Translations under genes and position numbers: made by a program
Shown: positions 19,101-40,700 of the stretch, piece by piece
Layout of the letters: each line of letters starts with the position of its first letter
Numbering within the stretch: the stretch's first letter is position 1
Virus record (IMG/VR): IMGVR_UViG_3300042545_001211
Location: 1 to 43,331 of that record
Strand: one strand, 5' to 3'
Length of the DNA stretch: 43,331 bases
Source: a virus
The notes under the pieces: model-generated
What the model saw: the letters and a program-made list of their open reading frames with translations, nothing else
Database searches by the model: none
What the model was told of the DNA's origin: nothing

Positions 19101-21299
19101 TGTAGCATCTCCAGTTACCGTCAATGTACTACCATCGAATTTTAAATTTGCTTCAACAGTTCCGTTTGGTGCAGTTCCGTTTAATGTAATTACACCATTA
19201 TCAGTTGTACCAGTTAATGCTAATAAACCAGAAGTACCTGATGTACCGCGTGTTCCAGATGTTCCAGATGAACCACTTGTACCAGAAGTTCCAGAAGTTC
19301 CACTTGTACCGGAAGTTCCTGCCGAACCACTTGTACCAGAAGTTCCCGATGAACCGGAAGCTCCTGATGAACCAGAAGTTCCTGATGTTCCGCTTGTTCC
19401 TGATGTACCAGAAGTTCCTGATGTACCAGAAGACCCACTTGTTCCAGCTGAACCTGATGTACCAGAAGTTCCACTACTTCCCGCCGAACCACTTTCTCCA
19501 GATGTTCCGCTACTTCCTGATGTACCAGATGTTCCTGAAGTTCCTGAAGTTCCTGATGTACCAGAAGTTCCGCTACTTCCTGCCGAACCACTTACTCCGG
19601 ATGTTCCAGATGAACCACTTTCTCCGGATGTTCCAGATGAACCACTACTTCCAGCTGAACCACTTACTCCAGATGTTCCTGAAGTACCACTACTTCCACC
19701 GGTACCACTTACTCCAGATGTTCCTGAAGTACCGGCCGAGCCAGATGAACCTTGTATTCCATCCGAACCACTTGTTCCAGAAGTTCCAGAAGTTCCAGAA
19801 GTACCTGAAGTACCTGAAGTACCTGCCGAACCAGATGAACCTTGTATTCCACTTGCACCAGATGTACCAGCTGAACCTGATGTACCAGCTGAACCCGAAG
19901 TTCCTGATGTACCCGAAGTTCCTGATGTACCAGCTGAACCACCGGTTCCACCTGCACCGGTTACTCCCGAAGTTCCTGATGTACCACTAGAACCACTACT
20001 TCCACTACTACCATCCGCTCCACTCGTTCCACTTGTTCCACCACTACCATTCGTACCACCCAATCCACCGGCTCCAGTTATACCACCACTACCAGCAGTA
20101 CCACTTGTTCCAGAAGTTCCAGAAGTTCCAGATGTACCTGCCGAACCAGTTGTACCGGCTGTTCCACTTATACCAGAAGACCCGGTTGAGCCGGCAGTAC
20201 CAGTTGTACCACCACTTCCCGAAGTTCCACTAGTACCACTTGTCCCAGCTGAACCAGATGTTCCTGATGAACCATCTTCTCCACTTGTTCCAGAAGTTCC
20301 TGATGTTCCAGAAGTTCCAGATGTACCAGCCGAGCCCGTTGTACCTGCAGAACCTGTACTACCTGAAGTTCCGGATGTTCCGGATGTTCCGCTTGTGCCA
20401 GAAGTACCCGATGTGCCATCGATTCCAGATGTTCCCGATGTACCAGACGTTCCGGATGTACCTGATGTGCCAGACGTTCCAGAAGTACCGGCAGAACCCG
20501 TACTACCAGAAGTTCCGCTTGTTCCTGAAGTTCCCGAAGTTCCTGATGAACCACTACTACCGGAAGTTCCTGATGTACCAGAAGTACCAGAAGTACCTTC
20601 ACTACCAGTTGTACCAGAAGTTCCTGATGTACCAGACGTACCAGAAGTTGCTGCTGCAAATTTAGTTCCTATCTTTCCCGTTGCGGTATTAATAACCAAT
20701 ACTTCGTTTGTTACATTATCAGCTTGGAGGCCGGTAACAAACATAGAACCTGAAATTGCTACACTACCAGTAAATTCTTGTTTATCGAGTTGAGAATCGC
20801 CAAATTTATTTGAACCAGATGAATATATTACAGATGATGAAATGTATGTTGTATGTATTTCAGTAGATGTTATTTTACCAGCTACACTAATATCTCCTTT
20901 GAAAATACCACTTCCAGTTACTATTAAAAAATCATTTACAGTAACGCCAGTATTAACTCTTAATCCTTGATTTGGTGAAATTTGTGCTACTACTGAACCT
21001 GATTTTAATCTATCTATATCGCCAATTGATGCCGCACTAATATTAAATAACCCACTACCATCTCCTCTAAATAAAGATGCGGTAATAGAACCACTAACTT
21101 GTGTATTTGCGTTTATTTGTAATGAAGACCCACTAGTTACTCCAATTAAATTTGTTTGTATTCCGGAAGCACTAAAGTTTCCTACAACATTTACAGATTC
21201 CGATGATGCATTTAATATAGATGCTCCACTCACAAAAAGTGATACACTATTTACACTAGTCTGATTTAACCCATTAGGACTTTTTCCGTTAAACTCCAT
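13113..21299 (-). CDS. Giant tail fibre with collagen-like region and C-terminal S74 self-cleaving chaperone (2728 aa)
   Basis: Residues 1-215 are short beta modules (SGSITASLFRGDGSGLFNI) also found in the 3464-aa fibre. Residues about 217-692 are collagen-like Gly-X-Y repeats, mostly GTSG. A linker follows with three near-identical copies of a GANELYAMDQNVRTTD-type repeat. The rest (about 930-2590) holds some 12 copies of a YDxxNTGYYxDPxGT motif separating variable domains, including SHPNAGG modules and two Trp/Gly-rich modules. The C-terminus is a chaperone of endosialidase (peptidase S74) domain with SDERLK at 2601-2606 and a final coiled coil. In that family the Ser/Lys pair cleaves just before the Ser after trimer folding. 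The likely role is a receptor-binding trimeric fibre. Confidence 0.9.
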   Translation of the reverse strand: MEFNGKSPNGLNQTSVNSVSLFVSGASILNASSESVNVVGNFSASGIQTNLIGVTSGSSLQINANTQVSGSITASLFRGDGSGLFNISAASIGDIDRLKSGSVVAQISPNQGLRVNTGVTVNDFLIVTGSGIFKGDISVAGKITSTEIHTTYISSSVIYSSGSNKFGDSQLDKQEFTGSVAISGSMFVTGLQADNVTNEVLVINTATGKIGTKFAAATSGTSGTSGTSGTTGSEGTSGTSGTSGTSGSSGSSGTSGTSGTSGTSGSTGSAGTSGTSGTSGTSGTSGTSGTSGIDGTSGTSGTSGTSGTSGTSGSTGSAGTTGSAGTSGTSGTSGTSGTSGEDGSSGTSGSAGTSGTSGTSGSGGTTGTAGSTGSSGISGTAGTTGSAGTSGTSGTSGTSGTAGSGGITGAGGLGGTNGSGGTSGTSGADGSSGSSGSSGTSGTSGVTGAGGTGGSAGTSGTSGTSGTSGSAGTSGSAGTSGASGIQGSSGSAGTSGTSGTSGTSGTSGTSGSDGIQGSSGSAGTSGTSGVSGTGGSSGTSGTSGVSGSAGSSGSSGTSGESGSSGTSGVSGSAGSSGTSGTSGTSGTSGTSGTSGSSGTSGESGSAGSSGTSGTSGSAGTSGSSGTSGTSGTSGTSGTSGTSGSSGASGSSGTSGTSGSAGTSGTSGTSGTSGTSGSSGTSGTRGTSGTSGLLALTGTTDNGVITLNGTAPNGTVEANLKFDGSTLTVTGDATISGNLTVSGTTTYINTTTLNVGDNIITLNADIGASTTPTENAGIEVKRGNAATKQFIWDEGNDRWSFDDNVNVSGNVVLSGTIDTGLGATEVYLMNQNIRTTDAVTFATVNTGQGANELYAMDQNVRTTDGVTFATVNTGQGANELYAMDQNVRTTDTVRFGKVEIDGASNYIDTNGGYFSITSAGNEITLGGTASSMYINYRAALGGTPTSYIWNAGTPSTFANHTMGRIDADSLYDRNDTTFYINPAGTSKASTINVDNLNTGNYVNIGYTNNNESISTTSFRGIDFHTTSDFNYYIGKPAGAWTQPLHIHFYTGIRLRSHHSYGGTQFYNIANSVAVASFNDGDNHFRTFYNSYLGNSSGDLTWVNDTLYVGASDSGDAEFRFGEDSSGWYGDRWYWDSAYNVYRYSRYAGTDSLIHYHDTRDAARITYGRNIVFDDFGKGIVGNYDSVRLQAVFAMGDSYKMAVNGLATNNMYGIAWSHPNAGGLGGANNLNDHGLLIINNGSFRASISSRIVASEEVRGTLFRDYTDTGYFLDPGTSATSLRIAGGIKQNNLVGRPYAVWGASSSTTGAVVIKFPGNTSNYGMIHAVIDIYEYNGNNACTVIVGGHNWNGAWYNFGATLVGYTDKPIRVGVKDGKYCIVIGNGSSGWSYGQVVLRKIQNGSYYSGVMDVAEGYTAAIESDSYSYISSNLSGFRSTTIQATSAMYSPIYYDSDDTTFRIDGDNTSVLRRLQVRPSGGSPGDSIQIYSSGVHQYPQIYSDGALEAMWNYRNTYAQWYVGLRTTSQLVGITGFHFYNTTYGQTVGGWSIDGIGYAISSFRAPIFYDQDNTGYYFDGNGTTVMNVSYNYGRHYYDNYLVSRNEGGMMGSYNSTGTASKVIWTIGESWPIGNMYGLGYEYASSTFLPGDPHVIALRNNGSTYTRLQMNGGIYTTGAIYSTAALYSPIYYDSDNTGYYVNAAGTTNLVYLVVANGNSIQHNAYNNNGSFMMNNASTYWGMISNVSANDWRLGYGGGNSIVGWNLRWDNGSTAWAQSFQANIMYDAQNTAYYIDPNGTSYLRGRLEVAGGHYDSSLRIIARGNEMGTGVPSYLQMWVSEPGVTWNDGGFGFNVHNNGSGPGGFDRINTGQGQAYMRFTSAGDWYFYNTNTSGTRVTNMEMYPNNTVYFNNYATGGNSLRAPIFYDSNNTGYYVDPAGTARLSYVLSNGGIRVDSNEHIYLDYNYGQTIFGVYTSTRYQGIFSMGTSWRLPVDGTSPGNLYGLSWSHPNAGGQAGYLTDHGLLVMVNGLTYAALTSTVWARSDMRSPIYYDHDTGYYFNGNGDSNWQGLTDYGKMRIGLTGKGNYRRNDYTGDTNYWIGSMGWGTTDMNSVAGWGSGFIDSWSNPGNQPSGTSHWVGTQAFHYAAGGNNNTGWQLVGGPISNLRFRSAWSGWSGWCTVAMHDRNDGSGGPLYAGYYADSNDTGYYLDPNSTSDSALRIRGGTLHGPNPTWGAYLYVGSNGRPNSYASVVTTNGNLHLDCQNGYETYINHYSGNRTYLYEIRTNFIYDRDDTSYYLDPNGTSQLSRFAQRTHAAINRGYHWNTPRFDYTGDTNYWTGTFGWGTSAGNWDNAWKAGFSGWDIWGGGTGHPQGGGYIHAQGIVSGQHYATSDGGAAYGWMMVGAGDATANRYWARGKWGGGTSGWLEFVMSGSNPGYTLYAYIMYDANNTGYYSDPNGDSRLSAIYIDQGYNYGWWRNYGCTGLYNQSYGRGIWAAECGGNSYGNYTTYDGGRNGWQGWGIGSRHCLMSTGGDNIGIHDNSRSWLYYWGGDYHRFQYGYFQADGSIRSPLFYDNNNTGYYMDGDGSSRMFRINANQLYAYEWVFCQGNIIAYYSDERLKTKVGKIENPIEKISQLNGFYYVNNDLAKSVGYTDEKVQLGLSAQEVQRILPEIVTLAPFDTEFDSEGNVIGSKSGENYLTIDYDKLVPLLVEAIKEQQVIIDKQKNDISEIKEMLKILTNNR
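13116..13499 (-). other. S74/intramolecular chaperone domain with self-cleavage site
   Basis: Residues 2601-2728. Ser2601 and Lys2606 in SDERLK fit the catalytic dyad known from endosialidase N (Ser911/Lys916). Conserved features follow: LNGFYYV, VQLGLSAQEVQRILPEIV, LTIDYDKLVPLLVEAIKEQQ. Predicted cleavage before Ser2601 would release a 128-residue chaperone. Confidence 0.85.
14040..15100 (-). repeat. Two paralogous Trp/Gly-rich modules in the S74 fibre
   Basis: About residues 2070-2185 and 2310-2420. Both open with a DYTGDTNYW motif and GWGT, pass through HxQGxxxxH-like segments, GW(Q/M)(L/M)VG and an RxxWxGxxSGW-type core, and end before a YDxxNTGYY repeat. They look like duplicated carbohydrate- or receptor-binding domains, by composition only. 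Confidence 0.6.
19225..20652 (-). repeat. Collagen-like Gly-X-Y repeat region of the S74 fibre
   Basis: About 475 residues, overwhelmingly GTSG, GSSG, GSAG and GESG triplets with Gly every third residue. The DNA is a degenerate 9-bp repeat. Such regions form triple-helical rods in phage fibres and are prone to length change by slippage or recombination. Confidence 0.9.
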
Positions 21300-22434: not shown

Positions 22435-23337
22435 TTATTTAAAGTTTATAGGTATTGATGCGAAATTTGTTAATCCAGTACAATTATTAAATGCATCAGT
22501 TCCAGCTGGTGCAGGTACTCTATTCCACAATTCAGGAGCGGTACCTGTTAAAGCATTTGTTGTGGAACTCATGTTATATAAATTACTAAAAGTTGTTACT
22601 GCTGTATTATATGTAAATTGTAAAACATCAACTATTGCTCTAGAATTTCTAAATGTTCCAGAAAAACTCGTCACATTTACATTTTGGTCAAATAATGTTA
22701 ATGGTACTGTTGTTAGAGCTTGGCATGCAAAGAAACAAGATGCAAATGATGTTGCCAAAGGAACATTATCAAATAATCCAGTTGGTATTGATGTTATTGT
22801 TGGTATTGATGCAAATGTACTACTAAATGTTGTTGCTTTTGGTGAATAATCAAATATATCCGAAGGTATTGATGTTATTCTAGTACCATTCATAAAATTA
22901 GAAAAAGTAACTATCTCATCTAAACCAGTATAACCACCTACTGCACTCAATGATGCACTTCCAGGTATCGCTGTTAAGTTTGAACAACCATAAAAATTTA
23001 CACTTCTTAATCCAACAATTCCCCATTGAACTAATTCAGTTATAAGAGTTCTAATTGCCGAATTATTATTTACTGCAAAACCTGGCATAAATCCAGTTAT
23101 AGTTACGTTATATGTTCCGGGACTAGTATAAGTGTGGATTCTATTTACGGAATTCGATACAGTTATTAATGGAGAACTACTACCATCACCCCAATCTATA
23201 TATAACGATGGTGTCAATCCACCATAATCAATCAAAGGACACGTAAATACAGTACTTGCAGTTGTTGTTGTAACTTTAAATACAAAGGGAAAAACTTGCG
23301 ATGAATCTGATGATATCAATCTTCTAAATATACTCAT
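22435..23337 (-). CDS. PKD-like plus BspA-type leucine-rich-repeat protein (300 aa)
   Basis: Residues about 20-85 resemble a PKD-type beta domain: LYIDWGDGSSSP and HTYTSPGTYNVTITG. Residues about 100-300 carry imperfect repeats of the BspA/DUF285 kind (IPSDIFDYSPKATTFSSTF, IPTGLFDNVPLATSFASCF, VPLTLFDQNVNVTSFSGTF), ending FNNCTGLTNFASIPINFK. BspA-like repeats mediate binding to surfaces and glycoproteins. Here the gene lies between a giant fibre gene (7 nt after it) and a fibre chaperone (1 nt before it), so a tail-tip adhesin is likely. There is no signal peptide. It could instead be a host-derived surface protein acquired by the phage. Confidence 0.75.
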   Translation of the reverse strand: MSIFRRLISSDSSQVFPFVFKVTTTTASTVFTCPLIDYGGLTPSLYIDWGDGSSSPLITVSNSVNRIHTYTSPGTYNVTITGFMPGFAVNNNSAIRTLITELVQWGIVGLRSVNFYGCSNLTAIPGSASLSAVGGYTGLDEIVTFSNFMNGTRITSIPSDIFDYSPKATTFSSTFASIPTITSIPTGLFDNVPLATSFASCFFACQALTTVPLTLFDQNVNVTSFSGTFRNSRAIVDVLQFTYNTAVTTFSNLYNMSSTTNALTGTAPELWNRVPAPAGTDAFNNCTGLTNFASIPINFK

Positions 23338-23344
23338 AACTTTA

Positions 23345-26300
23345 TTAACTTAAATTTTTACCGGTTACAAATCCGTAATACGAACCACCACCATTATAAG
23401 TATAGAATACTAAAACATCTACACCGGATGATGTTAATATAGGAGCAATTCCGCCTACCCAATCAATTTCAGCTGGCCATGTTATAGAATATGAGCCCGC
23501 ATTTACAACCACTAAAGTAAACCCAAATGCGTTTGATACTGGTGGATTTGAAAATGCAATCGTAGATGTACCATTAAATTGTCTTCTAAAGTTATTTGCA
23601 GTTGATAGGTCAAATGTTATGCTTCCTCCAGTTCCTTGGTCTGAATATGTTTCTCTAAATGTTGTAGAACTTATATAGGTAGAAGATACTATATTTCCCG
23701 TTACAGATAAATTAGTACCATCAAACGTTAAATTAGATTCTACTTGAGAACCAACTGGACTATCTATATAAGTAAGTACTCCATTATTAGTTGTTCCCGT
23801 AACTGGGAATCCGTTAGTACCCGATGTTCCCGATGTTACACCAGGAACAGATGTACCACTCGTTCCTCCGCTTCCACCGGTTCCGTTAATTCCAGAAGTT
23901 CCTGATGTACCAGATGAAAATCCCGGAGCGTTTGTTCCGGAAGTTCCTGCCGAACCACTTGCACCACTTGTACCGCTTGTGCCAGATGAAAATCCTGGTG
24001 CGTTTGTTCCAGATGTACCAGCTGCACCATTACTACCACTACTACCACTTACCCCAGAAGTTCCCGAAGTTCCGGATGAAAATCCCGGAGCGTTTGTTCC
24101 AGAAGTTCCCGAAGAACCATCTGCGCCAGCTGTACCCGTAGCACCATTTGAACCCGATGTACCACTACTTCCAAACATTGTACCATTAACACCAGATGTT
24201 CCAGAAGTTCCAGAAGTTCCTGATGTACCATTAACTCCATTTGTTCCATTTTCTCCAGATGTTCCCGATGTACCACTCTCTCCACTCGTACCACTACTTC
24301 CAAACATTGTACCATTAACACCAGATGTTCCAGATGTACCGGATGTGCCACTGCTACCATTTTCACCAGAAGTTCCCGATGTACCGGATGTACCAGAAGT
24401 TCCACTACTACCAAACATTGTACCATTAACACCAGATGTTCCAGAAGTACCCGATGTACCAGATGAGCCACTAACTCCCGATGTACCAGAAGTACCAGAA
24501 GTTCCTGATGTTCCGCTACTACCAAAGAATGTTCCGTCAAATCCTGAAGTTCCTGATGTGCCAGATGTTCCAGATGAACCACTGGCCCCCGATGTTCCGG
24601 ATGTTCCGTCCGTTCCAATTAAACCACTCGTTCCACTACTACCAAAGAATGTTCCGTCTAACCCAGAAGTTCCACTAGTACCAGATGTACCTTCTATTCC
24701 AGATGTTCCAGAAGTTCCATTAGTTCCACTTTCACCACTAGTACCACTACTGCCAAAGAATGTTCCATCAACTCCAGATGTTCCAGAGGTACCAGAAGTT
24801 CCAGAAGTTCCAGATGAACCGGCACCACTCGTACCACTACTTCCATCCGCACCACTTGTCCCACTTGTTCCAAAAAACGTTCCATCTGCACCTGAAGTTC
24901 CGGATGTACCACTCGTTCCATCAGTACCAACTCCAGAAGTTCCACTTGTGCCGCTTTCACCAGATGTACCACTTGTACCACTACTTCCAAACATTGTACC
25001 ATCAACTCCAGATGTTCCAGAAGTTCCTGATGTTCCAGATGTACCAGATGTACCATCACTACCAGATGTTCCTGAAGTTCCATCAGTTCCATTTATTCCT
25101 GATGTACCACTACTACCAAAGAATGTACCATCTATTCCCGATGTACCACTTGTACCCGATGTACCATCAATTCCAGATGTACCACTCGTGCCATCCGTGC
25201 CACTTATTCCACTAGTTCCACTACTACCAAAATATGTTCCGTCTATACCAGAAGTTCCCGATGTTCCCGATGTTCCGCCGCTTCCACTCGTACCAGAAGT
25301 ACCAGAAGTTCCATCACTACCAGAAGTTCCACTACTACCATTTGTTCCTGAAGTTCCTGATGAGCCATCTATACCACTCGTACCAGAAGTTCCTTCCGAG
25401 CCATTAGTACCCGATGTTCCGCTTGTCCCATCAGTTCCAGAAGTACCAGATGTACCATTTGTTCCAGAAGTACCCGAAGTACCATTTATACCAGAAGTAC
25501 CCGAAGTTCCCTCAGACCCATTTGTTCCTGAAGTTCCACTTGTACCAGAAGTTCCTGATGTTCCATCACTACCAGATGTTCCAGATGAGCCATCTATTCC
25601 AGAAGTTCCAGAAGTTCCACTCGTTCCATCAGTACCAACTCCAGAAGTTCCAGAAGTTCCTGATGTTCCATCACTACCAGAAGTTCCCGATGTTCCATCA
25701 CTACCAGAAGTTCCTGATGTTCCACTTGTACCAGCAGAGCCAGTTGTACCAGAAGTTCCCGATGTTCCGGAAGTGCCATCACTTCCTGATGTTCCAGATG
25801 TTCCACTCGTTCCATCCGAACCAGTTGTTCCTGAAGTTCCTGATGTACCATCACTACCCGTTGTACCAGAAGTTCCTGATGTTCCAGAACTTCCTGCCGA
25901 ACCGGATGTACCAGAAGTTCCTGATGTACCATCACTACCGGTTGTACCAGAAGTTCCTGACGTTCCAGATGTTCCAGATGTTCCTGATGAACCTTCACTA
26001 CCAGAAGTTCCCGATGTACCACTACTACCAGAAGTTCCACTAGAACCGGCAGAACCAGTTGTTCCTGACGTTCCAGATGAACCGGCTGAACCAGATGTTC
26101 CAGAAGTACCCGAAGTACCCGATGAACCCGATATACCATCACTACCGGAAGTTCCAGCAGTTCCCGAAGTTCCTGAAGTACCACTACTTCCATTTTCACC
26201 GGAAGTACCAGAAGTACCAGAAGTTCCCGATGTACCATCCGTACCGGCTCCACCACTTGTTCCAGATGTTCCCGATGTACCAGATGTTCCTGATGTTCCC

Positions 26301-29300
26301 GAAGTTCCGGCACTACCTGCAGTACCAGTTGAACCACTAGTACCACTTGTACCAGAACTTCCACCCGTACCAGATGTTCCTGATGTTCCTGATGTTCCTG
26401 ATGTTCCTGATGTTCCACTAGAACCTTCACTACCAGAAGTTCCGGATGTACCGGATGTACCAGAAGTTCCTGATGACCCGGATGAACCAGTGCTACCAGA
26501 AGTTCCCGAAGTTCCAGCAGTACCAGAAGTTCCAGAAGTTCCCGATGTACCACTTGTTCCTGACGTTCCAGATGACCCACTTGTACCACTAGTGCCCGAA
26601 GTTCCAGAAGAACCTTCACTTCCACTTGTTCCAGAAGTACCAGAAGTTCCCGAAGTTCCAGCCGAAGCTTCAGTTCCAGAAGTTCCAGAAGTTCCTGATG
26701 TACCATCACTACCCGTTGTGCCACTTGTACCTGATGTTCCTGATGTTCCTTCAGAACCGGTTGTACCAGATGTTCCCGATGTACCAGAAGTTCCCGAAGT
26801 TCCTGATGTACCTGCCGAACCTTCCGTTCCAGAAGTTCCAGAAGAACCTTCACTTCCACTTGTTCCAGATGTACCAGAAGTACCAGCCGAACCTTCGGTT
26901 CCAGATGTTCCAGATGTTCCAGAAGTACCCGCAGAACCTTCGGTTCCAGATGTACCGGCCGAGCCATCTAATCCAGATGAACCTTGTACGCCTGCTATAT
27001 TTCTTGTTTCTAATTTCTTCGTTGAACTATTCCAAACTACCACATTCTCCGATGAACCAGAAACTAATGTTCCTATTAATACACTACCACTAACTCCTAA
27101 ACTACCACTAATAGTTAAATTAGCGTTTATATTACTATCTTTATTTACTTGTAAAAATGATGCTGTATTTACCCCTTCCGCATTTAAAGCGTATAGAGCG
27201 TATGATGCAGTGAATGCTAACGATGCAGTTTGTGCAAATAACACACTCATTGAAGAAGTTTGCGAACTAAGTAAATCACCAGCACCAGCACCACCACCAC
27301 CTCCTAATATGGTTACCAATACCCCATCCGAACCAGACGATATCACATTAACACCAGAGCCAGTAAAATGAATTTTTCCTACTTGTGCTTTTACCAATGA
27401 ACTGGTTTGGTATATAAATAATTCAGTACCACCACCTTGTCCTGCATTTAATGCGTATGATGCCGTTAATGCGTAAGAAGAACTTACCGCCCTAAATACA
27501 GACATCGAAGCTGTTTGAGAATTTCTTACAAAATTTTCTAAATCACCCAAAGCTGCTAACGATGCGGAATTAAATCCAACAATACTTTCAGCTACACCCG
27601 CTCTAACTGCATATGAAGCCGATAACACATTACCAATTACTCTATCACCAGGTATCGTACCATTTACCAACGAACCACCGCTACCAATTACAGCATGCCC
27701 ACTTGTCAATCCACTAAATGTAATCTTTATAGTATTTTCATCAATCGATTCAACGGTGGATGGTATAATTTGTGCTTCCGAACCAGTAGCGTAAACTTGC
27801 ACCATTGGATAAAGTATTTCCAAATTGTGTACAATAGTTATTTCACTTGCATTATTAAATGAAACGGTTTCAGTTAATGACGTTTCAGGTTGAGGGATAA
27901 AATATCCTCTATTTTCATCATATCTTAAAATATCATATTCTACAGATGCAGTAGGTCCTAGTCCTTGGAAGTTATAAGTTCCTAAAAATGAACCACTAAT
28001 TAATGGAGAGAAAATATAACTACTACCAGTTATACTATTTGCTCTTAAATTTCTATCAACATACGAATCTCCCCAAACAAATGAAGATGTATTAACTACA
28101 AATCCATTATTAGGTGAAATAGATGCAGTTGCAGAACCACTCTTTAATAAGAATGTTTCAAATGATAAGTTAGCTATATTAATGTTTGTCAAACCACTAC
28201 CATCACCATAATAAGTTGAACCGGATGATAATAATACATTTCCACCGGTTACAAATAATCCACCACTAACACTTAAATTACCAGAAACAAACGTTCTAGT
28301 TCCAATTTCGAATCCTTTGTTTGGAGATATTACCGCTTGAACTGAACCTGATATAATTCTATCCAATTTAAGGTCTTGTAATGCATTAGCAGGGATGTTA
28401 AATAATCCCCCACCATCACCTATATAAAGTGCCGCTGTTATTGGTACGTTTACACTTAATTTAGTAGGGTCAATTATAGCAGTACCAGAACCGGAATTGA
28501 TTTTTTCTAATTCTAAGTTTTCAATCGCATCCGGGGGGATGTTAAATAATCCACCGCCATCTCCATAATAAAGAGATGCGGTTATTGAACCACTAATAGC
28601 TACCGATGATGTGAATTGAGATTGATATGAACCAGAAGATACTGCAGTTATTACTTGGAATATTTCACCACTTGTTACAGATGCAGTTGCTGAACCACTT
28701 GCGATTAACGGAGCTGCTGATGCTTGTACATTTGTAATAAATCTACCATCTCCAAATAAGAATGTACTTGCTTTAATTGAACCACTAACTTCGATTGAAC
28801 CGGTAAATTCAGAACCTATTAATGAGCCGGTTTCATTCGTTTTTACTATAAATCTACGTCCACTTGATACCGATGCAGTTGCCGAACCACTTGCTATAAA
28901 TGGGGCTGCTTGTGCAAATACATTTGTAATATATCTACCATCACCAAATATATAATCTTTTACAACAACTGAGCCACTAACTTCTATTGAACCGGTAAAT
29001 TCGGACCCAATTTGTTCACCAAGTTTTGTAGTTACTACTTGGAATATTTCACCACTTGTTACAGATGCAGTTGCAGAACCACTAGCTATTAAAGGTGCCG
29101 CTGCTGCTTGTACGTTGGTAATAAATCTACCATCACCATAAATGTATTCGGTTGCTCTAATACTACCGCTAACTTCAACCGAACCAGTGAATCTAGAACC
29201 AACTTCTGAGCCAGTGAATGGTGTAATTACATTGAACCCATAATCAGGTGATACCGAAGCGGTTACCGAACCGGATTTAATTTCAGTTGATATTAATGCG

Positions 29301-32300
29301 TCTTGAGTTAATGCCGATTTTGGAATATTTCTTAAATAAGTACCTTCTGCGTAAATGAATGAAGATGAATTTATAAATAAACCACCACTTATATCACTTA
29401 TAAATAAACTACCACTTATATCAACCGAGCCAGTAAATTGAGAAGCGATTGAAGCAGTGAATATATTACTAAACTCATCAAATGAAGATGTGAATGGAGT
29501 TATTACTCTAAATCCATAAACAGGACTTACCGATGCGGTTACTGAACCCGATTTAATTTCCGATGATACTAATGCATCTTCCGTTAGTGCTGCTCTTGGA
29601 ATATTTCTTAAATAAGTACCTTCCGAATAAATGAAAGATGCGGAATCAATTCTAATGCTTCCACTAAAATCAGAACCACTTTCAAATGATGCTACTCTAA
29701 AACCAAAATCAGGTGCTACCGAAGCGGTTACACTACCACTTGCGATTCTAAATGCATCTCCTGTTATGTTTGCAAACGGTATATCAAATAACCCTCTACC
29801 ACTACCACTAAACATTGATGCTGTTAAATTTCCTTCAACTTTTGTATTACCAATTAATTTTATTTCAGCAGGTATGTATAATGCATCTACTACATTGATT
29901 GTACCCGCCATAGATGAGTGTAATTGACAATTATAATATAAGGTATCTGGTGCACTACCAGAAACTAAAAATGTTACATTACCAACATCTTCACCATTAT
30001 TATCTACCCAAGTAGTATATGCGTTTGAAGTACCAGTACTATTTACCGTCTTAATCCAAAATGGATGGCCGGATGCATTTACGTTAAATGTATAATTTAC
30101 ATTTCTTACTAAAGTTAAAGTTGGATTTGAGCCACTTACTAATTTATTACTTATATTATATAAACCACTGCCATCATTTGTTACGATAAATACCTTATCT
30201 ATTTCATAATCAGGTATTACTCTTGCAGATGATGAAACTATAAAACTTCCACTAATTGTAGAGAATGTGTTTACTCTAAGCCCATAATCAGGTGCAATTG
30301 ATGCTGTTGCAGAACCACTTGCAATTCTATTAATTTTAAATGATAAAGCAGATTCTGGAATATTACTCAATCCCTCGCCACTTCCACTAAAGAATGAACC
30401 AGTTTCAACTCTGATGTAGCCACCACTTACAAATAAACTTCCACTAAACTGAGAACCACTTTCAATTGAAATTACTCTAAACCCATAATCAGGTGCAACA
30501 GATGCTGTAACTGAACCAGATTTAATTTCCGTAGATATTAATGCATCTTGTGTTAATGCTGAACGTGGGATATTTCTTAAATAAGTACCTTCAGAAAATA
30601 TGAATGAAGATGAATCAATTAATATACTACCACTAAATGATGAACCACTTTGAAAAGAATTAACAACAAATCCAAAATTAGGAGATACTGATGCGGTTAC
30701 ACTACCACTTGTTATTCTAAATACTTCAGATGATAATGCAGATTGTGGTATATCAAACAATCCTTTACCACTACCACTAAATACTGATGCTGATATTGAA
30801 CCAGAGAAATTTGATACTGCCGCAAATACTTCAAATCCTCTATTTGGAGAAATTGATGCAGTTGCACTACCACTAAATATTTTTGATGTATCTAAATTCG
30901 AAAGTGCCGAAATTGGGATATCAAATAATTTAGCACCACTACCAGAGAAAGATGAACCGGTAATAACTCTTAATTCTCCATAAAAAGTACTACCACTATT
31001 TATCGAAGTTACTACAAATCCACTATTAGGTGCAACCGATGCGGTTACTGAACCGGATTTGATTTCCGTTGTTAATAATGCATCAGGAGTTAATGCCGAA
31101 CGAGGTATATCAAATAATCTAGCCCCACTACCACTAAATGAACCGGTAGATAATTCAACACCTCTAGAGCCACTTATAAATAAAGAACCGCTAATCGTAA
31201 CGTTGCCAATTAAAGTAGAACCAAAATCAACCGAAGTTAAAATAAATCCTTTATCAGGCGCAACTGATGCGGTTACTGAACCAGAAACAATTGCGGTTGC
31301 AACTGGCGGTGGTACTACTATTCCAGTTAATCTACTACCATCTCCTTGAAATGAACCACTGATATCAGAACCACTTATTTCATTAGATATAATAGTACGT
31401 GCTCTAAGACTACCACTTATATCAACACTACCAGTAAATTGTGAACCAACATTTCCTGCTTCTACTTTAAATCCATAATCAGGTGCCACAGACGCAGTTA
31501 TACTTCCGCTTGCAATTCTGGATGAATCACCGGTAAATGCGGAACGAGGAATATCATATAATCCAGCACCACTTCCAGTAAACATAGATGCCGATACGGT
31601 TGTTTTGAATATCGCAGGTTTGCTTATATTTAAACTACCACTAATAATCACATCTCCTATAATCTTAACTTCTGGAGCTCTTTGTAAAATGGCATCTACA
31701 ATATTAATTACGCCACCCATTGATAAATGGAATTGGCAATTATAATAAAGTGTATCAGGTGCATTTGGTGGAACATTAAATGTTAATGTACCAGAATCAA
31801 TTCCATTATTTGTTACACCGGTATCATATGTATTTCCAGTACCACTAGATTGAGTTGTTTTAATATAAAATGGATGGCCAGATGCATTTAAATTAAATGT
31901 ATAAGTTACACCTCTAACCAACGTTAATGTTGGATTTTGGTTTATAGAATCACCGTTAAAACGATAAGCCGCACTAGAATCATTTGTTACATTGAATACC
32001 GTATTCAAAGATTCAGGTGGATAGTATGCAGTTGATGCTGATATTATCATGCTTCCACTAAATGTAGAAAACGTATTTACTCTAAACCCATAATCAGGTG
32101 ATATGGATGCAGTTACACTACCGCTTGAAATTCTTGAAAGGTCTAAATCTCTAAGAGCGGAAATTGGTATATTAAATAACTTGTCACCACTACCACTAAA
32201 TGAGCCAGTAAATAATTCAACATTTCCACTTACGAATAACGAACCTGTAAACGTACTTCCACTATTTATTGAAGTTACTACAAATCCTGTATTAGGTGCA

Positions 32301-33739
32301 ACCGATGCAGATACACTACCACTTGCGATTACCGTAGTTAATAAAACCTGAGATGCTAATGCTGAAAGTGGAATATCAAATAAACCTCTACCACTACCAC
32401 TAAAGAACGAACCGGTTGCTACTTGTATATTTCCACCGCTTACAAATAATGAACCAGTAAATTGAGAACCACTTAAAGATGATTCTACTCTAAACCCATA
32501 TTGAGGTGAAACTGATGCGGTTACACTACCAGTTGCAATTATCGTTGCTGTTAATGCATCGGGAGTTAAAGCAGAACGAGGTATATCAAACAATCCTCTA
32601 CCACTACCACTAAACATTGATGCTGTTACAGTTGATTTAAAAATACCACTACCAGTTACTATTAAAAAATCATTAATAGTTGCTGCAGTATTTACTTCAA
32701 ATCCTTTGTTTGGTGAAATCGATGCGGTTGCAGAACCACTTGCTATTAACGTCGATGTTAATGCGGGGATGTTGAATAATCCACTACCATCTCCTCTAAA
32801 TAAAGATGCCGATACTGTACCGCTTACAAATAAAGAACCTGTAAATTGAGAACCACTTTCTTGTGATTCTACTCTAAATCCAAAATTAGGAGATACCGAT
32901 GCAGTTACACTACCACTTACGATTTTATACGGAGAAAACGATAATGCAGATTCAGGAATATTAAATAAACCCTCACCGCTTCCACTAAAATATCCACTAC
33001 CAGATGGTATAGTAATATTTCCACTTACAAATAAAGAACCCGTAAACGTTGACCCACTAATTTCTGATAAAACTACAAATCCGGTATCCGGAGAAACTGA
33101 TGCCGTTATACTACCACTTGCTAATCTAGTTGCTTTCGGTAAGTTAAATAAATTTGTACCGTCTCCAAAAAATGAACCGGTAAAAGAACCGGTAAATGAT
33201 GAACCGGTAATATTATTACCAATTAATTCACTTTCTATTCTTACAGATCCAGTAAATTGTTGTATATTATCATTGGTGTTACCAAATATATTTGAACCGG
33301 ATGAATATATTATAGAAGATGAAATTACATTTACTATAAGTTGGTCTGCTATAATCGATTTACTCACATAGAGGTTTCCCTCAATTATTGTATCGGTATT
33401 TACATTAAGACCATTTGATTTAAAAGATGCAGTTGCCGAACCACTTGCTATAAACGGAGCTACAACGGATGGTACATTTGTTAATTTGCTACCATCTCCT
33501 TGGAATGAACCAGAAAAAGACCCACTAAATTCTTCTAAAAATAGTTTTTTTGCAAATCCTCTATTACCTTGGTCATCGGAAACTATTATCGCAGGATTAG
33601 TTAATAGAGATGCAGAGAAGGGTGGTACTCCCAAATTTGGTTCAGCCTGAGATAAATCTAAGAATTGATACCTATCAGATGTTACATTTTTTGGGCTTAC
33701 AACCCTTACCCTGCCCGTTAATAGATTACTTATTGCCAT
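23345..33739 (-). CDS. Giant tail fibre with cupredoxin-like inserts and a 1060-residue collagen-like region (3464 aa)
   Basis: After a short N-terminal part, residues about 95-1900 hold 23 copies of a module reading (I/L)xSGSxTASVxPxxGFxV, then SGSxFTGSLFVSG and FSGSGxGLFDIP. Two cupredoxin-like domains are inserted (about 577-683 and 1179-1286). Residues about 1900-2250 include an IEDxTI-type beta domain and NAGQGGG/ALGDLENF segments. Residues about 2249-3310 are collagen-like Gly-X-Y. The last 150 residues form a tip domain (FDLSTANNFRRQF, VVVNAGSYSITWPAEIDW, GVDVLVFYTYNGGGSYYGF) common at phage fibre ends. No S74 domain is present. The box at 33759-33767 lies 20-28 nt before its ATG. Confidence 0.9.
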   Translation of the reverse strand: MAISNLLTGRVRVVSPKNVTSDRYQFLDLSQAEPNLGVPPFSASLLTNPAIIVSDDQGNRGFAKKLFLEEFSGSFSGSFQGDGSKLTNVPSVVAPFIASGSATASFKSNGLNVNTDTIIEGNLYVSKSIIADQLIVNVISSSIIYSSGSNIFGNTNDNIQQFTGSVRIESELIGNNITGSSFTGSFTGSFFGDGTNLFNLPKATRLASGSITASVSPDTGFVVLSEISGSTFTGSLFVSGNITIPSGSGYFSGSGEGLFNIPESALSFSPYKIVSGSVTASVSPNFGFRVESQESGSQFTGSLFVSGTVSASLFRGDGSGLFNIPALTSTLIASGSATASISPNKGFEVNTAATINDFLIVTGSGIFKSTVTASMFSGSGRGLFDIPRSALTPDALTATIIATGSVTASVSPQYGFRVESSLSGSQFTGSLFVSGGNIQVATGSFFSGSGRGLFDIPLSALASQVLLTTVIASGSVSASVAPNTGFVVTSINSGSTFTGSLFVSGNVELFTGSFSGSGDKLFNIPISALRDLDLSRISSGSVTASISPDYGFRVNTFSTFSGSMIISASTAYYPPESLNTVFNVTNDSSAAYRFNGDSINQNPTLTLVRGVTYTFNLNASGHPFYIKTTQSSGTGNTYDTGVTNNGIDSGTLTFNVPPNAPDTLYYNCQFHLSMGGVINIVDAILQRAPEVKIIGDVIISGSLNISKPAIFKTTVSASMFTGSGAGLYDIPRSAFTGDSSRIASGSITASVAPDYGFKVEAGNVGSQFTGSVDISGSLRARTIISNEISGSDISGSFQGDGSRLTGIVVPPPVATAIVSGSVTASVAPDKGFILTSVDFGSTLIGNVTISGSLFISGSRGVELSTGSFSGSGARLFDIPRSALTPDALLTTEIKSGSVTASVAPNSGFVVTSINSGSTFYGELRVITGSSFSGSGAKLFDIPISALSNLDTSKIFSGSATASISPNRGFEVFAAVSNFSGSISASVFSGSGKGLFDIPQSALSSEVFRITSGSVTASVSPNFGFVVNSFQSGSSFSGSILIDSSSFIFSEGTYLRNIPRSALTQDALISTEIKSGSVTASVAPDYGFRVISIESGSQFSGSLFVSGGYIRVETGSFFSGSGEGLSNIPESALSFKINRIASGSATASIAPDYGLRVNTFSTISGSFIVSSSARVIPDYEIDKVFIVTNDGSGLYNISNKLVSGSNPTLTLVRNVNYTFNVNASGHPFWIKTVNSTGTSNAYTTWVDNNGEDVGNVTFLVSGSAPDTLYYNCQLHSSMAGTINVVDALYIPAEIKLIGNTKVEGNLTASMFSGSGRGLFDIPFANITGDAFRIASGSVTASVAPDFGFRVASFESGSDFSGSIRIDSASFIYSEGTYLRNIPRAALTEDALVSSEIKSGSVTASVSPVYGFRVITPFTSSFDEFSNIFTASIASQFTGSVDISGSLFISDISGGLFINSSSFIYAEGTYLRNIPKSALTQDALISTEIKSGSVTASVSPDYGFNVITPFTGSEVGSRFTGSVEVSGSIRATEYIYGDGRFITNVQAAAAPLIASGSATASVTSGEIFQVVTTKLGEQIGSEFTGSIEVSGSVVVKDYIFGDGRYITNVFAQAAPFIASGSATASVSSGRRFIVKTNETGSLIGSEFTGSIEVSGSIKASTFLFGDGRFITNVQASAAPLIASGSATASVTSGEIFQVITAVSSGSYQSQFTSSVAISGSITASLYYGDGGGLFNIPPDAIENLELEKINSGSGTAIIDPTKLSVNVPITAALYIGDGGGLFNIPANALQDLKLDRIISGSVQAVISPNKGFEIGTRTFVSGNLSVSGGLFVTGGNVLLSSGSTYYGDGSGLTNINIANLSFETFLLKSGSATASISPNNGFVVNTSSFVWGDSYVDRNLRANSITGSSYIFSPLISGSFLGTYNFQGLGPTASVEYDILRYDENRGYFIPQPETSLTETVSFNNASEITIVHNLEILYPMVQVYATGSEAQIIPSTVESIDENTIKITFSGLTSGHAVIGSGGSLVNGTIPGDRVIGNVLSASYAVRAGVAESIVGFNSASLAALGDLENFVRNSQTASMSVFRAVSSSYALTASYALNAGQGGGTELFIYQTSSLVKAQVGKIHFTGSGVNVISSGSDGVLVTILGGGGGAGAGDLLSSQTSSMSVLFAQTASLAFTASYALYALNAEGVNTASFLQVNKDSNINANLTISGSLGVSGSVLIGTLVSGSSENVVVWNSSTKKLETRNIAGVQGSSGLDGSAGTSGTEGSAGTSGTSGTSGTEGSAGTSGTSGTSGSEGSSGTSGTEGSAGTSGTSGTSGTSGTSGTTGSEGTSGTSGTSGTTGSDGTSGTSGTSGTEASAGTSGTSGTSGTSGSEGSSGTSGTSGTSGSSGTSGTSGTSGTSGTSGTAGTSGTSGSTGSSGSSGTSGTSGTSGTSGSEGSSGTSGTSGTSGTSGTSGTGGSSGTSGTSGSTGTAGSAGTSGTSGTSGTSGTSGTSGGAGTDGTSGTSGTSGTSGENGSSGTSGTSGTAGTSGSDGISGSSGTSGTSGTSGSAGSSGTSGTTGSAGSSGTSGSSGTSGTSGSEGSSGTSGTSGTSGTSGTTGSDGTSGTSGTSGSAGSSGTSGTSGTTGSDGTSGTSGTTGSDGTSGTSGTSGSDGTSGTSGTSGTTGSAGTSGTSGTSGSDGTSGTSGSDGTSGTSGTSGVGTDGTSGTSGTSGIDGSSGTSGSDGTSGTSGTSGTSGTNGSEGTSGTSGINGTSGTSGTNGTSGTSGTDGTSGTSGTNGSEGTSGTSGIDGSSGTSGTNGSSGTSGSDGTSGTSGTSGSGGTSGTSGTSGIDGTYFGSSGTSGISGTDGTSGTSGIDGTSGTSGTSGIDGTFFGSSGTSGINGTDGTSGTSGSDGTSGTSGTSGTSGTSGVDGTMFGSSGTSGTSGESGTSGTSGVGTDGTSGTSGTSGADGTFFGTSGTSGADGSSGTSGAGSSGTSGTSGTSGTSGVDGTFFGSSGTSGESGTNGTSGTSGIEGTSGTSGTSGLDGTFFGSSGTSGLIGTDGTSGTSGASGSSGTSGTSGTSGFDGTFFGSSGTSGTSGTSGTSGVSGSSGTSGTSGTSGVNGTMFGSSGTSGTSGTSGTSGENGSSGTSGTSGTSGVNGTMFGSSGTSGESGTSGTSGENGTNGVNGTSGTSGTSGTSGVNGTMFGSSGTSGSNGATGTAGADGSSGTSGTNAPGFSSGTSGTSGVSGSSGSNGAAGTSGTNAPGFSSGTSGTSGASGSAGTSGTNAPGFSSGTSGTSGINGTGGSGGTSGTSVPGVTSGTSGTNGFPVTGTTNNGVLTYIDSPVGSQVESNLTFDGTNLSVTGNIVSSTYISSTTFRETYSDQGTGGSITFDLSTANNFRRQFNGTSTIAFSNPPVSNAFGFTLVVVNAGSYSITWPAEIDWVGGIAPILTSSGVDVLVFYTYNGGGSYYGFVTGKNLS
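23810..26995 (-). repeat. Collagen-like Gly-X-Y region of the 3464-aa fibre
   Basis: About 1060 residues, mostly GTSG triplets, in a degenerate 9-bp DNA repeat. Ten evenly scattered G(I/V/A/L/F)(D/N)GTxFGxS units (with FF, MF or YF) break the Gly register by one residue, and three GTNAPGFSSG units break it differently near the end. Confidence 0.9.
29884..30205 (-). other. Cupredoxin-like domain 2 in the 3464-aa fibre
   Basis: About residues 1179-1286. Candidate type 1 copper ligands are His1225 (SGHPFWIK), Cys1271, His1274 and Met1277 (CQLHSSM). The Cys-x2-His-x2-Met spacing equals that of amicyanin. The His-to-Cys distance of 46 residues is the same as in domain 1. Confidence 0.7.
31692..32010 (-). 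other. Cupredoxin-like domain 1 in the 3464-aa fibre
   Basis: About residues 577-683. Candidate ligands are His622 (SGHPFYIK), Cys668, His671 and Met674 (CQFHLSM). The frame is a beta sandwich: LTLVRGVTYTFNL, then GTLTFNVPPNAPDTLYYN, as in small blue copper proteins. Confidence 0.7.
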
Positions 33740-34745: not shown

Positions 34746-37700
34746 TTATATTTGTAGTGCTAATGAGAACGGAGTTACTAATGAGAATAGAGATTTACTA
34801 AATGTTCTACCCACAAGAGTACCAGTTGCCTGATTAATACTCAATCCAGTACCAATTCTAAAGTCACCATCCTGATTACCAGATGTAAAGAAGATTCTAC
34901 CTCCACCCAATTCGGTAATTTCAAATATTGGATTTGCAACACCACTACCACCCTGATTTGGAGGAAGTGCTTTAAACGTTACACCACTACCATTATAAGA
35001 GTAGTCAATACCAGTTGCCACAATTAGAGAACCAAATGATTCTAATGGTGCACCCGCTGCTATAAACTCTGCTCTAGTTCTTAGATAACGATTTGTTTCC
35101 AATGTTTCTAATAACTGGTCTCTAGTCACAGCTATTGCACTTCCATACTGACCATCATAATATGAAGATGCTGCTCTGATTCCTCTCTCATTTCCACCAT
35201 ATAATAAATCAGTTACAGCCGCATCTACAATAAATCCAGTATCACGTGAACAACTAGCCTCATTATATACTAAATATGGAAATGCTCCATTTGTATATCC
35301 AATTGCTCTTTGTTTTAATTCATCCTTACCAGATTTCAATCTTTCAGCCGCTTGTCTTCTCTTAGTTGCAGGTGCTAAATAAGTTAATAAAGTATTTGCT
35401 ACAATTTTTTCAGATATTCCTCTTGCGAAGTTAATACCATCTATCGTTTGCTTCTTTTGTCCATTATTATCACCATAACTATCCACAATTGCTACGGATG
35501 GGAATTTATAATAGTATGAACCTGCTTCAATACTTCTTTCATTGCCACCATAAACTAAGTCAGTTCTGATTGCATCTATGATAAATCCTAAATCTCTACT
35601 ACAACTTACTTCATTATATTTTAAATTACTCCAAGATGAAGATAAGAATGTTATAGTTTCTTTTTGTATTAACGTTTTGTTATCTGTCAATAATTTTGCT
35701 GTTAGTACTAAAGATGCAGATGGTTCTAAATAAGTTGGATTGATTACTACTTTTTTAGATAACTTTCCAGCATATCTGATACCAGTAAGAGTTGGGTCTA
35801 ATTGATTTTGAGTTGATGGTACACCTTTATTGATTGCGTTAGAAGGATATAAGTAATAATACTGTCCTGCTATCACACTTCTTTCTTGTCCACCATATAA
35901 TACATCCGTTGCTGCTGCATCTATTAGGTAACCAACATCTCTCTTACAAGTTGTTTCGTTATAATATACACCACTCCAAGAAGAAGATACATAAGCGATA
36001 GTTTCAGCTGCTACAAATGATTTGTTCTTTCTTAATAAATCAAATGATGCCGATGCCTCTACTGATGCTGTTACAAACAATGTATTTTTTACAATCTTTT
36101 GTGCTATTCTACTTGCGTAGTTTATACCATCAATTGTTTGTCCTAATTGCCCAACACCATCACCATCTCCTTCAATAATTGCCTTAGATGGATATTTGTA
36201 ATAGAACTCTCCGCTGAATACACCTCTTTCATTTCCACCATATAGTAAATCAGTTGTTACACCATCTAAGATATAACCAACATCTCTCTTACACTTATCT
36301 TTATCATACTCAAATGTACTCCAGCTAGCAGTTAAGTAAGCTAGGGTTTCATTTTGTATAAACTCTCTATTATTTCTCAACAAATTAACCGATGCTGATA
36401 CTAATTGTGATGCTGTCACAAATGTTAATGATGCCGCAACATTCTTAGAAGTTTGTCCTGCGTACTTAACACCTGCTAATGTAGGTTGTAATTGTGAACC
36501 TTGCGCTTGTGATGGATATAAGTAATAGAATACCCCAGCGTTTGTACTTCTTTCATTTCCACCATATAATAAATCCGTAGAAACTGCATCTATGATATGT
36601 CCAACATCTCTTTTACAAGTTACTTCATCGTAAGATGCCGTACTCCAAGAAGAAGATACATAAGCGATAGTTTCGTTTTGTATAAACTCTCTATTCTTTC
36701 TTATTAATGCGTATGATGCTGATACAACTGCTGATGCAGTTACATAAGTTACATTTTGAATTACTTTTTGTGCTAACTTACTTGCGTAGTTTATTCCATC
36801 AAGCGTTTGATTCAATTGTGCTCCTTGTGCCTGTGATGGGAAATCATAATAGAATACACCATTTACTAAAGATGCTGAATTTGAGTTAAATACCAAATCT
36901 TCAGCTGCTCCACTTATAATTAATCCAACATCACGTCTACACTTACTTTCATCATAAGATGCCGTTGACCAAGATGATGATAAATATGCAATAGTTTCAT
37001 CCTGTATGAATGAAATGTTATTTTTTAGTATTCCGTATGCAATCCATCTATTATCATTACTTACCGCAGTTGTATAAGATGAAGTTGGTAAACTTAATGA
37101 TGCTGATACTATTGCTGAACCAGTTCCGTTAGCAACTATGTTTGTTACGATAGCAATTGATGCCGATAGTATTGTTGCTTCAGTAGAAGTTGCCGATGAT
37201 GCTGAAATATATTGAATAGCGTTAGTTACTTTAATATTTCCTAAAGTATTAAGTATAATAGAAGGTGCTCCTATTAATGTACTACTAATAGATGCTGTTG
37301 TAAATCTAGCTGCGTACTTAATTGCATCCGTTGTTTGAATTACTTGCGAACCAAACCCATTGGCCTGTGATGGGAACTGATAATAGTAATCCCCATTCTT
37401 TCTACTTCTTTCGTTACCGCCATAAAGTAAATCGGTTGCTACGCCATCAATGATATATCCTAAATCTCTATAACACTTACTCTCACTATAATCTAAGTTA
37501 GGGTATTTAACGTTTACATATGCAACACTTTCACTTTGTATGAATAATTTATTAGCCTTTATTAAATCGTATGCGTATTGAGCTTCTAAAGATGCTGTAA
37601 ATATCTGCTTATTAACAACTACGTTCATAGCCGTTCCTTTTGCGTATCTTACACCAGTCAATGTTGGTTCTAATTGTGCGTTTGTAGCTTGAGATGGATA

Positions 37701-40700
37701 ATCATAATAGTATCTACCTGCTATCACACTTCTTTCGTTGCCACCATAAAGTAAATCAGTTGCTACTGCATCTATAATGTATCCAATATCTCTCTTACAA
37801 GTTGTTTCGTTATAATCATGCTTAGCCCAACTTGCTGATAGATACGCAATTGATTCACTTTGTATAAATTCTTTGTTAGTTCTCAATGAATTCCAAGATG
37901 CCGATGTTGGTTGGTTAATTGATGCTGATATATGTGTAAAAGGAGTATTCAATACCACCTTTTCTGCCAATCCACTTGCGTATTTGATTGCCGTAATTGT
38001 TTGGTCTAATTGAGAACCAGTAGCGTTTGATGGGAAATCAAAATAGAACTTACCATTAAACAAAGATGCGGAGTTACCACCATATAAAAGGTCAAATGCA
38101 GAACCACTAAGGATTCCAGTCAAATCTCTTTCACATTTACTTTGTGTATATTCAAATCCACTCCAAGATGAACTCATATAAGCAATAGTTTCATCAACTA
38201 TGAATTTAGAATTACTTACTAATAAGTTATATGCCGAATTTATTTTTACATTTGTATTTGCTATCGGATATGTCGATGGTCTAAACCCAATTGAGCTTGT
38301 ACCATTACTTAATAAAACATCAATTACCAAAGATAAAGATGATGATATTAATTTACCTTGCAATCTTCCAGATGCACTTCCACTTATTAATTGTGGTGTG
38401 TTAGTTACCTTAATACTTGCTGATGTATTTGATATAATTGTTGGTAGAACAGATGTTCCATTTTCAATTACACTTAATATCAAATCAAATCCACTTGCAA
38501 TCTTATTAGTATCAAAAGATGATGCTGATATTGCTTGTCTTATCGGATTTGCATTTGTTACTTTTAAAGATGATGATGTATTTGTTACTAATGTAGGTAA
38601 TACACTCAATCCGTTTTTAACAACGTTTACAACAGTACCATAAGAAGAACTTACGTTTGTAATTTGAGTTGATAAGTTATATGAACCCGTACCAATTGTT
38701 TGTTCTTTAGAACTTATATGTAATAAAGTTGGTGTAGCTAATTCAAATCCATAATTATAGTTTCTTACTAATGAATCCGGTACAAATGCAACACCATTTT
38801 CAATAATATCAGCTACATGCTTAAATGATGATGTAATAATATCCAATTCGGCTCCACTTGCTGATATCGATGATGAGTATTGAGTTGTATTTGTTACTTT
38901 AATTAAACTATCTCCATTTTGAACCAATACAGGTAATGTACTGATTGAATTTTTAGTAGTTCTAACAAAGGTATGAGCTGCTTGAGGTAAGTGTTTAATT
39001 GCACCAGCTGATGCAGATACAAACGTATGAACTGATTGCGGTAGGTATTTTACAGCGTTTGCCGATGCTGATACAAATGTATGTATTGAGCCAGAAGCAC
39101 TCCCAGCATCCCCTACATTGATTGTGAAGATACCATCTTGTCTTTGTACTCCATTAATACTTGCTGTCACAAATGTATGTGAGTTTGTATATGAAGATGC
39201 ACCTATATTGATGTTAAACGTATTTGTAGTTACACCAGATATACTTAACCATCTTCCGCTTGGATAATCATATCCAGCTCTAGGGTAAGATTTTGAAATC
39301 ACATTATCATCCAATACACAATTGTAAGTTAATGAGTTATCAGAAAGTTTAATATAATCACCATTACTAAATCCGTGAGATGCTATTGTTAAGGTAACAT
39401 CTCCAGTCTCAGCGTTATATGGAGCATTGGTTACTGTGTGTTGAGTAAATCCAACTGATTTTATCTCAATTGATTTTCCAAGATACGGGTCACCACTTCC
39501 ACTTCTAGGATAACTATGTGTTGTTGCATTTCCGTCTTGGTCACAAGTAAATGCCATTGAACCCGTTGCTAAAATAACACTTCTACCAACGCCCAATCCA
39601 TGCTGTCCAACAGTTACAGACATATCACCTGTAAGTGCATTATAATTAGCTGCGGATGGTGTAAAGTATTTGTTAGCCGCCGATGCCCCAACACTAACCG
39701 TCAATGTAGTTGGTGTAGTATTAGTTATCACCATAGAACGACCAGCGTATGGGTCTATACCAAATCTAGGATAGGATTTAACTGATTGATTGTTGTCCAT
39801 ATCACAAGTAAATGCGATTGAACCCGTTGTTATTAAAATTCCTTCGCCAATACTTAAACTATGTGTACCTACTGTCATTACAAAATCTCCAGTAGCTGGA
39901 TTATAAGTTGCATTAGTAGGTGTAAACTCTACATTAGGTCCTGATACTCCAACATTAACAGTTATTGTATTAGTTGTTACTGATTGTATTTGTAATTTGT
40001 TAGAATATGCGTATTGTCCAGCTGAAGGTAATTTGTGTTCCGTTCTATTACCATCCATTTCACAAGTGAATACAAATGATTCAGGTTTGATGTAAATACT
40101 ATTATACTTTGTCAATGTATGACTTGGAATAGTAATTACAAAATCTCCATTCGCCGGATTGTATGTTGCGGTAGTTGGTGTAAATGATTTTACCCCATCA
40201 TTTATGATTCCAGTTACTAAACCGAATGATGAACTAATTTGATTTACTTCAATTGTAGTTGCACCTAAAGATGATGTATATTGTGTAGTATTTGTTACCT
40301 TAATATTTCCATCAGTATTTGTAGTTAGTGTTGGTGAATTTAATTTAATATTTTGAACTATTGCTTTAGCTAATGCTTTTGCGTAATCAACACCAGCAAC
40401 AGTTTCTATAACTTGCGTACTCTTTGTTGCTAACGATGGATATAAATAATAATATTGTCCAGCTATAACACTTCTTTGATTTCCACCATAGAAAGTATCA
40501 GTTATAACTGCATCTAAAATATATCCAACATCACGTCTACACGTTTCTCTTAAATAAACTAAATTAGGGAAGAAAGCATCTATATATTGTACAGTTTCGT
40601 TTTGTATAAATGTTTTATTCTGTCTTAATAAATTAACTGATGATGTTACGAATCCAGTTGGTGATATTAATACTTTATTTTCTATTATATTTTTTGCAGT

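Follow-up and report, generated by a model that had tools for sequence, protein, structure and literature searches.

Does a giant phage tail fibre carry copper sites, and what would such sites do in a virion? The window (the whole stretch of DNA analysed, 43,331 nucleotides), from a freshwater phage, encodes a tail fibre of 3464 residues in which the original prediction had placed two sets of type 1 copper ligands, H622/C668/H671/M674 and H1225/C1271/H1274/M1277, and a check of the translation found all eight residues at the claimed positions. As judged from sequence and model together, both inserts are cupredoxin-fold domains, and each has all four residues (His, Cys, His and Met) of a predicted type 1 copper site. 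The fibre and the parts of it that are discussed below are the following.

23345..33739, minus strand: tail fibre ORF, 3464 aa (ORF and translation; related fibres have the same N-terminus)
31688..32008, minus strand: cupredoxin domain 1, about residues 578-684 (AlphaFold2 pLDDT 95; Foldseek; PF25489, 27.0 bits; phrog_677, 6e-29)
31874..31876, minus strand: His622, predicted N-terminal copper ligand of domain 1 (invariant alignment column)
31718..31738, minus strand: Cys668-x2-His671-x2-Met674 ligand loop of domain 1 (sequence, alignment and profile matches)
29879..30199, minus strand: cupredoxin domain 2, about residues 1181-1287 (63% identical to domain 1; phrog_677, 6e-21)
30065..30067, minus strand: His1225, predicted N-terminal copper ligand of domain 2 (sequence)
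29909..29929, minus strand: Cys1271-x2-His1274-x2-Met1277 ligand loop of domain 2 (sequence)
31693..32302, minus strand: copy 1 of a duplicated cassette, domain plus flanking fibre repeat (68% nucleotide identity to 29884-30500)
29884..30500, minus strand: copy 2 of the cassette (nucleotide comparison with copy 1)

The N-terminal half of the fibre is made of short beta-repeats and holds both domains, and the C-terminal half is made of collagen-like G-T-S repeats (Pfam Collagen match to the fibre, 1.4e-107). Its 3464 residues include just 2 Cys (C668 and C1271), 7 His, four of which are the predicted copper ligands, and 14 Met. The domains, of about 105 residues each, are 63% identical in protein, and the duplication reaches into the flanking fibre repeat, with 68% nucleotide identity across ~610 nt. 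The 46-residue His-Cys distance is indeed equal in both copies, as had been pointed out, but it does not count as separate evidence because the two copies arose by duplication. For a given Cys of the fibre, the odds of having His at +3 and Met at +6 are ~8 in a million, and both Cys have them; these odds, and the conservation described below, rule out a chance motif.

Fold of the inserts and known copper proteins

The proposal of a cupredoxin fold is borne out by an AlphaFold2 model of copy 1, for which 20 sequences taken from the window and from viral loci were aligned and which has eight strands, a pLDDT of 95 and a pTM of 0.86, and by the matches of this model in the PDB. Among the best 50 Foldseek matches listed, all 50 are copper cupredoxin-fold or multicopper proteins; they include rusticyanin (the best, 3.1e-5), AcoP, multicopper oxidases, plastocyanins, copper nitrite reductase, a purple cupredoxin, pseudoazurin and a CuA domain with an amicyanin loop. 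A model of domain 2 from its single sequence reached a pLDDT of only 46 and carries no weight here.

Single-sequence phmmer searches against the PDB returned nothing useful, and matches came with profiles. Profile A1 matched nitrite reductase, auracyanin, plastocyanin, azurin and amicyanin, and the more diverse profile A3 gave 45 PDB matches, 35 of them to copper proteins, led by nitrite reductases at 1e-4 (6hbe) and 6e-4 (9cck), with azurin at 0.007 and amicyanin at 0.01 at best. Singly these E-values are modest, and it is the consistency of the matched sequences that carries the argument. In the A3 alignments shown, the loop Cys, His and Met fall in register with those of nitrite reductase, azurin and amicyanin, and in one A1 alignment the N-terminal His falls in register with that of plastocyanin (1kdi). 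Taken with the fold match, this register suggests that the four ligands would cluster at one site, and copper is likely to be bound at the site so predicted.

The inserts had been called amicyanin-type, a description that fits their short Cys-x2-His-x2-Met loop but not their family. Amicyanin, known from Paracoccus and relatives, is a free periplasmic electron carrier of methylamine dehydrogenase. It shares the loop and the cupredoxin fold, but its His-Cys spacing is 39 residues versus 46 in the fibre domains, its sequence relation to them is weak and it is not embedded in a fibre; hhalign against amicyanin gave a probability of 18% with A1 and 59% with A3. Searches with the window domains gave no amicyanin match in NCBIfam at E up to 10 and no PF00127 (Copper-bind) match in Pfam, and membership of the amicyanin family is ruled out by these negatives, with the domain sitting in a 3464-residue fibre among phage tail genes.

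Rusticyanin and plastocyanin have a type 1 His-Cys-His-Met site. With AcoP they are the best Foldseek matches (E 3e-5 to 1e-3) and share the fold, but they are free electron carriers with 16-22% identity and longer ligand loops. The cupredoxin domains of copper nitrite reductases, which gave the best profile matches, share a Cys-x2-His-x2-Met-x-Gly loop with the inserts but are part of an enzyme that has no relation to virions. The only Pfam model to reach its cut-off for the domain is PF25489 (At5g54830-like), at 27.0-27.2 bits for domain 1 against a cut-off of 27 and 13.2 bits for domain 2, and 15 of 22 family members match it at E up to 10; the model is named for a plant protein and has no copper annotation in the scan output. 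With the domain as query, the match to phrog_677, the cyanophage gp9 'baseplate wedge tail fiber protein connector', covers profile positions 303-410 of 412 only. Gp9 ends in the same C-terminal domain with the ligands kept, but it is a single-domain connector of ~400 residues that is named by its position in the virion and has no copper-site annotation.

Screening of titles and abstracts in the open literature found no paper on a phage-tail cupredoxin. For phage fibres, the metal precedent that came up is iron, held by HxH motifs in gp37 of T4 and in fibres of marine phages, with a suggested role in host recognition (PMC11705849); these are likewise transition-metal sites in a tail fibre, but of octahedral Fe bound by His pairs and not by a cupredoxin domain.

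Conservation, loss and spread of the domain

In an alignment of 26 members that are 32-58% identical to domain 1, and that were picked among ligand-bearing sequences, the only invariant columns are the four ligands, P43 and Y86. As a control for this bias, related fibres were fetched via their N-terminal 106 residues, a region distant from the domains. All 40 of the distinct long fibres obtained in this way have one to three copies of the domain; two more ORFs, short or broken ahead of most of the domain region, lie outside the 40. The claim that all four type 1 copper ligands are kept holds across a large family: they are intact in 67 of the 76 distinct domain copies of these fibres, and in all 11 gp9 copies from the eleven Kyanoviridae genera sampled, where the domain forms the extreme C-terminus of the protein. 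Every Cys in the 40 fibres is a ligand Cys (71/71), with none in the 102,936 residues outside the domains, and although the fibres are related and do not make 40 independent cases, this shows that Cys is excluded everywhere in them except at the ligand site. A disulfide or structural role for the Cys was rejected because each domain has a single Cys and the fibres have none elsewhere.

The Cys is absent from nine fibre copies, in eight of which the loop His is also gone and in four the N-terminal His. The N-terminal His is thus missing from 4/9 Cys-less copies versus 1/135 Cys-bearing domains of the whole non-redundant set (Fisher p = 4e-5, a value that ignores relatedness). On the tree there are only about four Cys-loss events, chiefly one ligand-less lineage, so an independent-pairs test of joint loss has no power; the joint loss fits a metal site given up as a unit. 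The fibre loci with ligand-less copies are L201/L203, L175, L228, L180, L238, L210, L179 and L243, with the Cys and usually the loop His gone, and six of these copies form one lineage of the tree. Outside the set of fibre copies, His, Cys and His are all lost from the one copy sampled in Synechococcus phage S-B43 and from the proteins of loci L250 and L251. The latter two, L250 (G001:C1:200400-207000) and L251, are a second giant protein of related phages with a ligand-less version of the domain, in which Tyr, Ser/Ala, and Arg or Thr replace the three residues.

That the fold may persist without copper was anticipated, and several related copies do lack the ligands and keep the remaining sequence. 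Because such copies persist in fibres, the fold would be useful without metal, and these natural ligand-less copies, which could serve as metal-less controls, show that not every copy needs copper.

The original prediction treated the domain as a feature of one fibre. Its location in a virion fibre stands, but the scope was too narrow: tblastn found a relative in at least 343 phage records, a number that includes many isolates of one species, and nearly all are Synechococcus and Prochlorococcus phages. Many of these relatives are the C-terminal domain of gp9, and S-SSM5, P-SSM2 and S-RIM2 are among the cyanophages that have the domain. The domain is a widespread phage version of a known kind of protein, in an unexpected place. 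Besides gp9, which is annotated as a baseplate wedge tail fibre connector or tail pin, carriers include podovirus tail-region proteins and a tail-fibre-like protein of P-SSM2, and wherever a phage carrier has a functional annotation, it is as a fibre, baseplate or virion structural protein or as a protease. In Synechococcus phage S-H9-1 the cupredoxin domain, with its ligands intact, forms the C-terminus of a tail-region protein of the subtilase kind (Peptidase_S8; L094, 4318-6324). A fold search of viral models also found YHYH-domain phage proteins and giant-virus beta-sandwich proteins, among them small Pithovirus-/Marseillevirus-like proteins (BFVD A0A481Z6J5 and A0A481YVH3) with the same predicted fold.

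Bacterial and archaeal genomes hold 72 loci with relatives, at identities of up to 64%. Many of the encoded proteins have lipoprotein or secretion signals, one relative that was checked has a CHRD domain, and a few of the contigs look like phage; a single-domain relative from Methylotenera has 128 residues and a signal-peptide-like N-terminus. Viral and cellular sequences interleave in a poorly resolved tree, with 12 changes between them, which is consistent with repeated exchange between viruses and cells.

Two further groups of proteins were seen along the way. A divergent variant with 'HPIRFSTT'-like and Cys-x2-His-x2/3-Met motifs, carried by structural proteins of marine phages, those of the baseplate wedge among them (the second ORF of L093, L266, L268 and L068), is possibly another tail cupredoxin family. 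In the PS1/OCS116 clade, several loci (L102, L105, L106, L110, L111 and others) encode tandem cupredoxin-like domains, one divergent and one of the present family, with Cys-x2-His-x2-Met in both.

Possible roles of the predicted copper site

We hold with about even confidence that the fibre shaft carries a duplicated cupredoxin with a predicted type 1 copper site, that the family is a mobile surface module and that the domain serves as a copper-capped adhesion or structural bead. The domain would sit as a side bead in the repeat-built shaft of a long tail fibre, where it was duplicated, and would belong to a module common to secreted bacterial proteins and phage tail proteins, whose phage carriers would be long fibres, podovirus tail-region proteins, the gp9 connector and S8-protease tail-region proteins. 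As to copper occupancy, the time of loading and function, we infer that the fibre would be assembled in the cytoplasm with its sites empty and would take up copper when the cell lyses or later outside it, copper being available beyond the cytoplasm. With the ion in place, the C-terminal ligand loop, which lies on the bead's tip, would be locked, giving a stiff and exposed surface that may serve fibre cohesion or contact with the host surface. An adhesive or structural role is favoured over electron transfer because the copies sit in fibres, connectors and tail-region proteases, because the cassette is duplicated and because the domain persists in ligand-less form.

Conservation of all four ligands with the axial Met, as in electron-transfer cupredoxins, is expected of a redox site too. 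Since these residues are near-invariant, a cupredoxin that exchanges electrons with the host envelope, or handles copper or oxygen species, at adsorption keeps a small share of our expectation, and the bacterial relatives do include secreted single-domain proteins of cupredoxin size, such as that of Methylotenera. Electron transfer is the less likely role because no partner is evident, either in the window or beside the two bacterial single-domain genes examined; the domain is, moreover, embedded in fibre repeats, and the same fibres retain ligand-less copies.

We consider it unlikely, to much the same degree, that the loaded domain is a lure, imitating a host copper protein so that host surface proteins of copper uptake or handling recognise it. 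In its favour, secreted bacterial proteins have domains up to 64% identical, and the Trojan-horse idea for iron in HxH fibres offers a precedent by analogy (PMC11705849), but that idea is itself a hypothesis.

It is very unlikely that the domain is a degenerate cupredoxin, a metal-free beta-sandwich building block with ancestral ligands, as the copies that keep their sequence without ligands might suggest, because leftovers would not stay near-invariant amid diverging sequence, and here, at 32-58% identity, no positions are better conserved than the ligands, and a fibre family without any other Cys has kept this one. In vitro, type 1 sites also accept other divalent metals. We nevertheless give scant credence to a site that holds Zn, Fe or Ni in vivo instead of copper: Zn sites have been predicted in the YHYH domains of phage tails (PMC7824862), but all listed structural matches of the fibre domain and most of its profile matches are copper proteins.

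If the predicted sites do take up copper, many phages may carry the metal on parts that contact the host. A wider proposal, which we regard as possible but not probable, is that copper-loaded type 1 sites, in giant fibres at one end and in the gp9 of many T4-like cyanophages at the other, are common and so far unrecognised in the tails of aquatic phages, and that the metal has a part in recognising the host or in triggering, perhaps as a copper lure or as a redox-sensitive switch at the cell surface. If abundant phages of marine and fresh waters do keep a complete copper site in their fibres and connectors, copper would join the chemistry of the virion, one could ask if copper status affects phage adsorption, and phage tails would become a candidate ligand for copper in water.

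Neighbouring proteins of the window

The remaining ORFs of the window encode a tail sheath, a tail tube and other tail and fibre-like proteins. The closest relatives of the tail sheath are in Microcystis and Flavobacterium phages, at 44-53%. As a test of host type, five viral records of 71-207 kb and uncertain completeness, either related or carrying the domain, were searched for Photo_RC (PF00124, psbA/psbD family), and it was found in none.

Adjoining the fibre, a 300-residue protein (22435-23337) has a PKD-like N-terminus (0.0005, under the cut-off) and a match to phrog_9915, and is possibly a fibre tip or accessory protein. A second giant fibre (13113-21299) has a collagen-like G-T-S stretch, and its C-terminal end resembles an intramolecular chaperone to the eye ('SDERLKTKVGKI'); on the opposite strand of this region, the long ORFs look like by-products of the repeats. 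At the other end of the window, a giant repeat protein of at least 2861 residues (34746-43331) runs off the edge; its repeat contains the segment C-K/R-R-D-x-G-x-I-x-D-A-x-x-T-D-x-x-Y-G-G-N-E-R, with one conserved Cys in most of the repeats.
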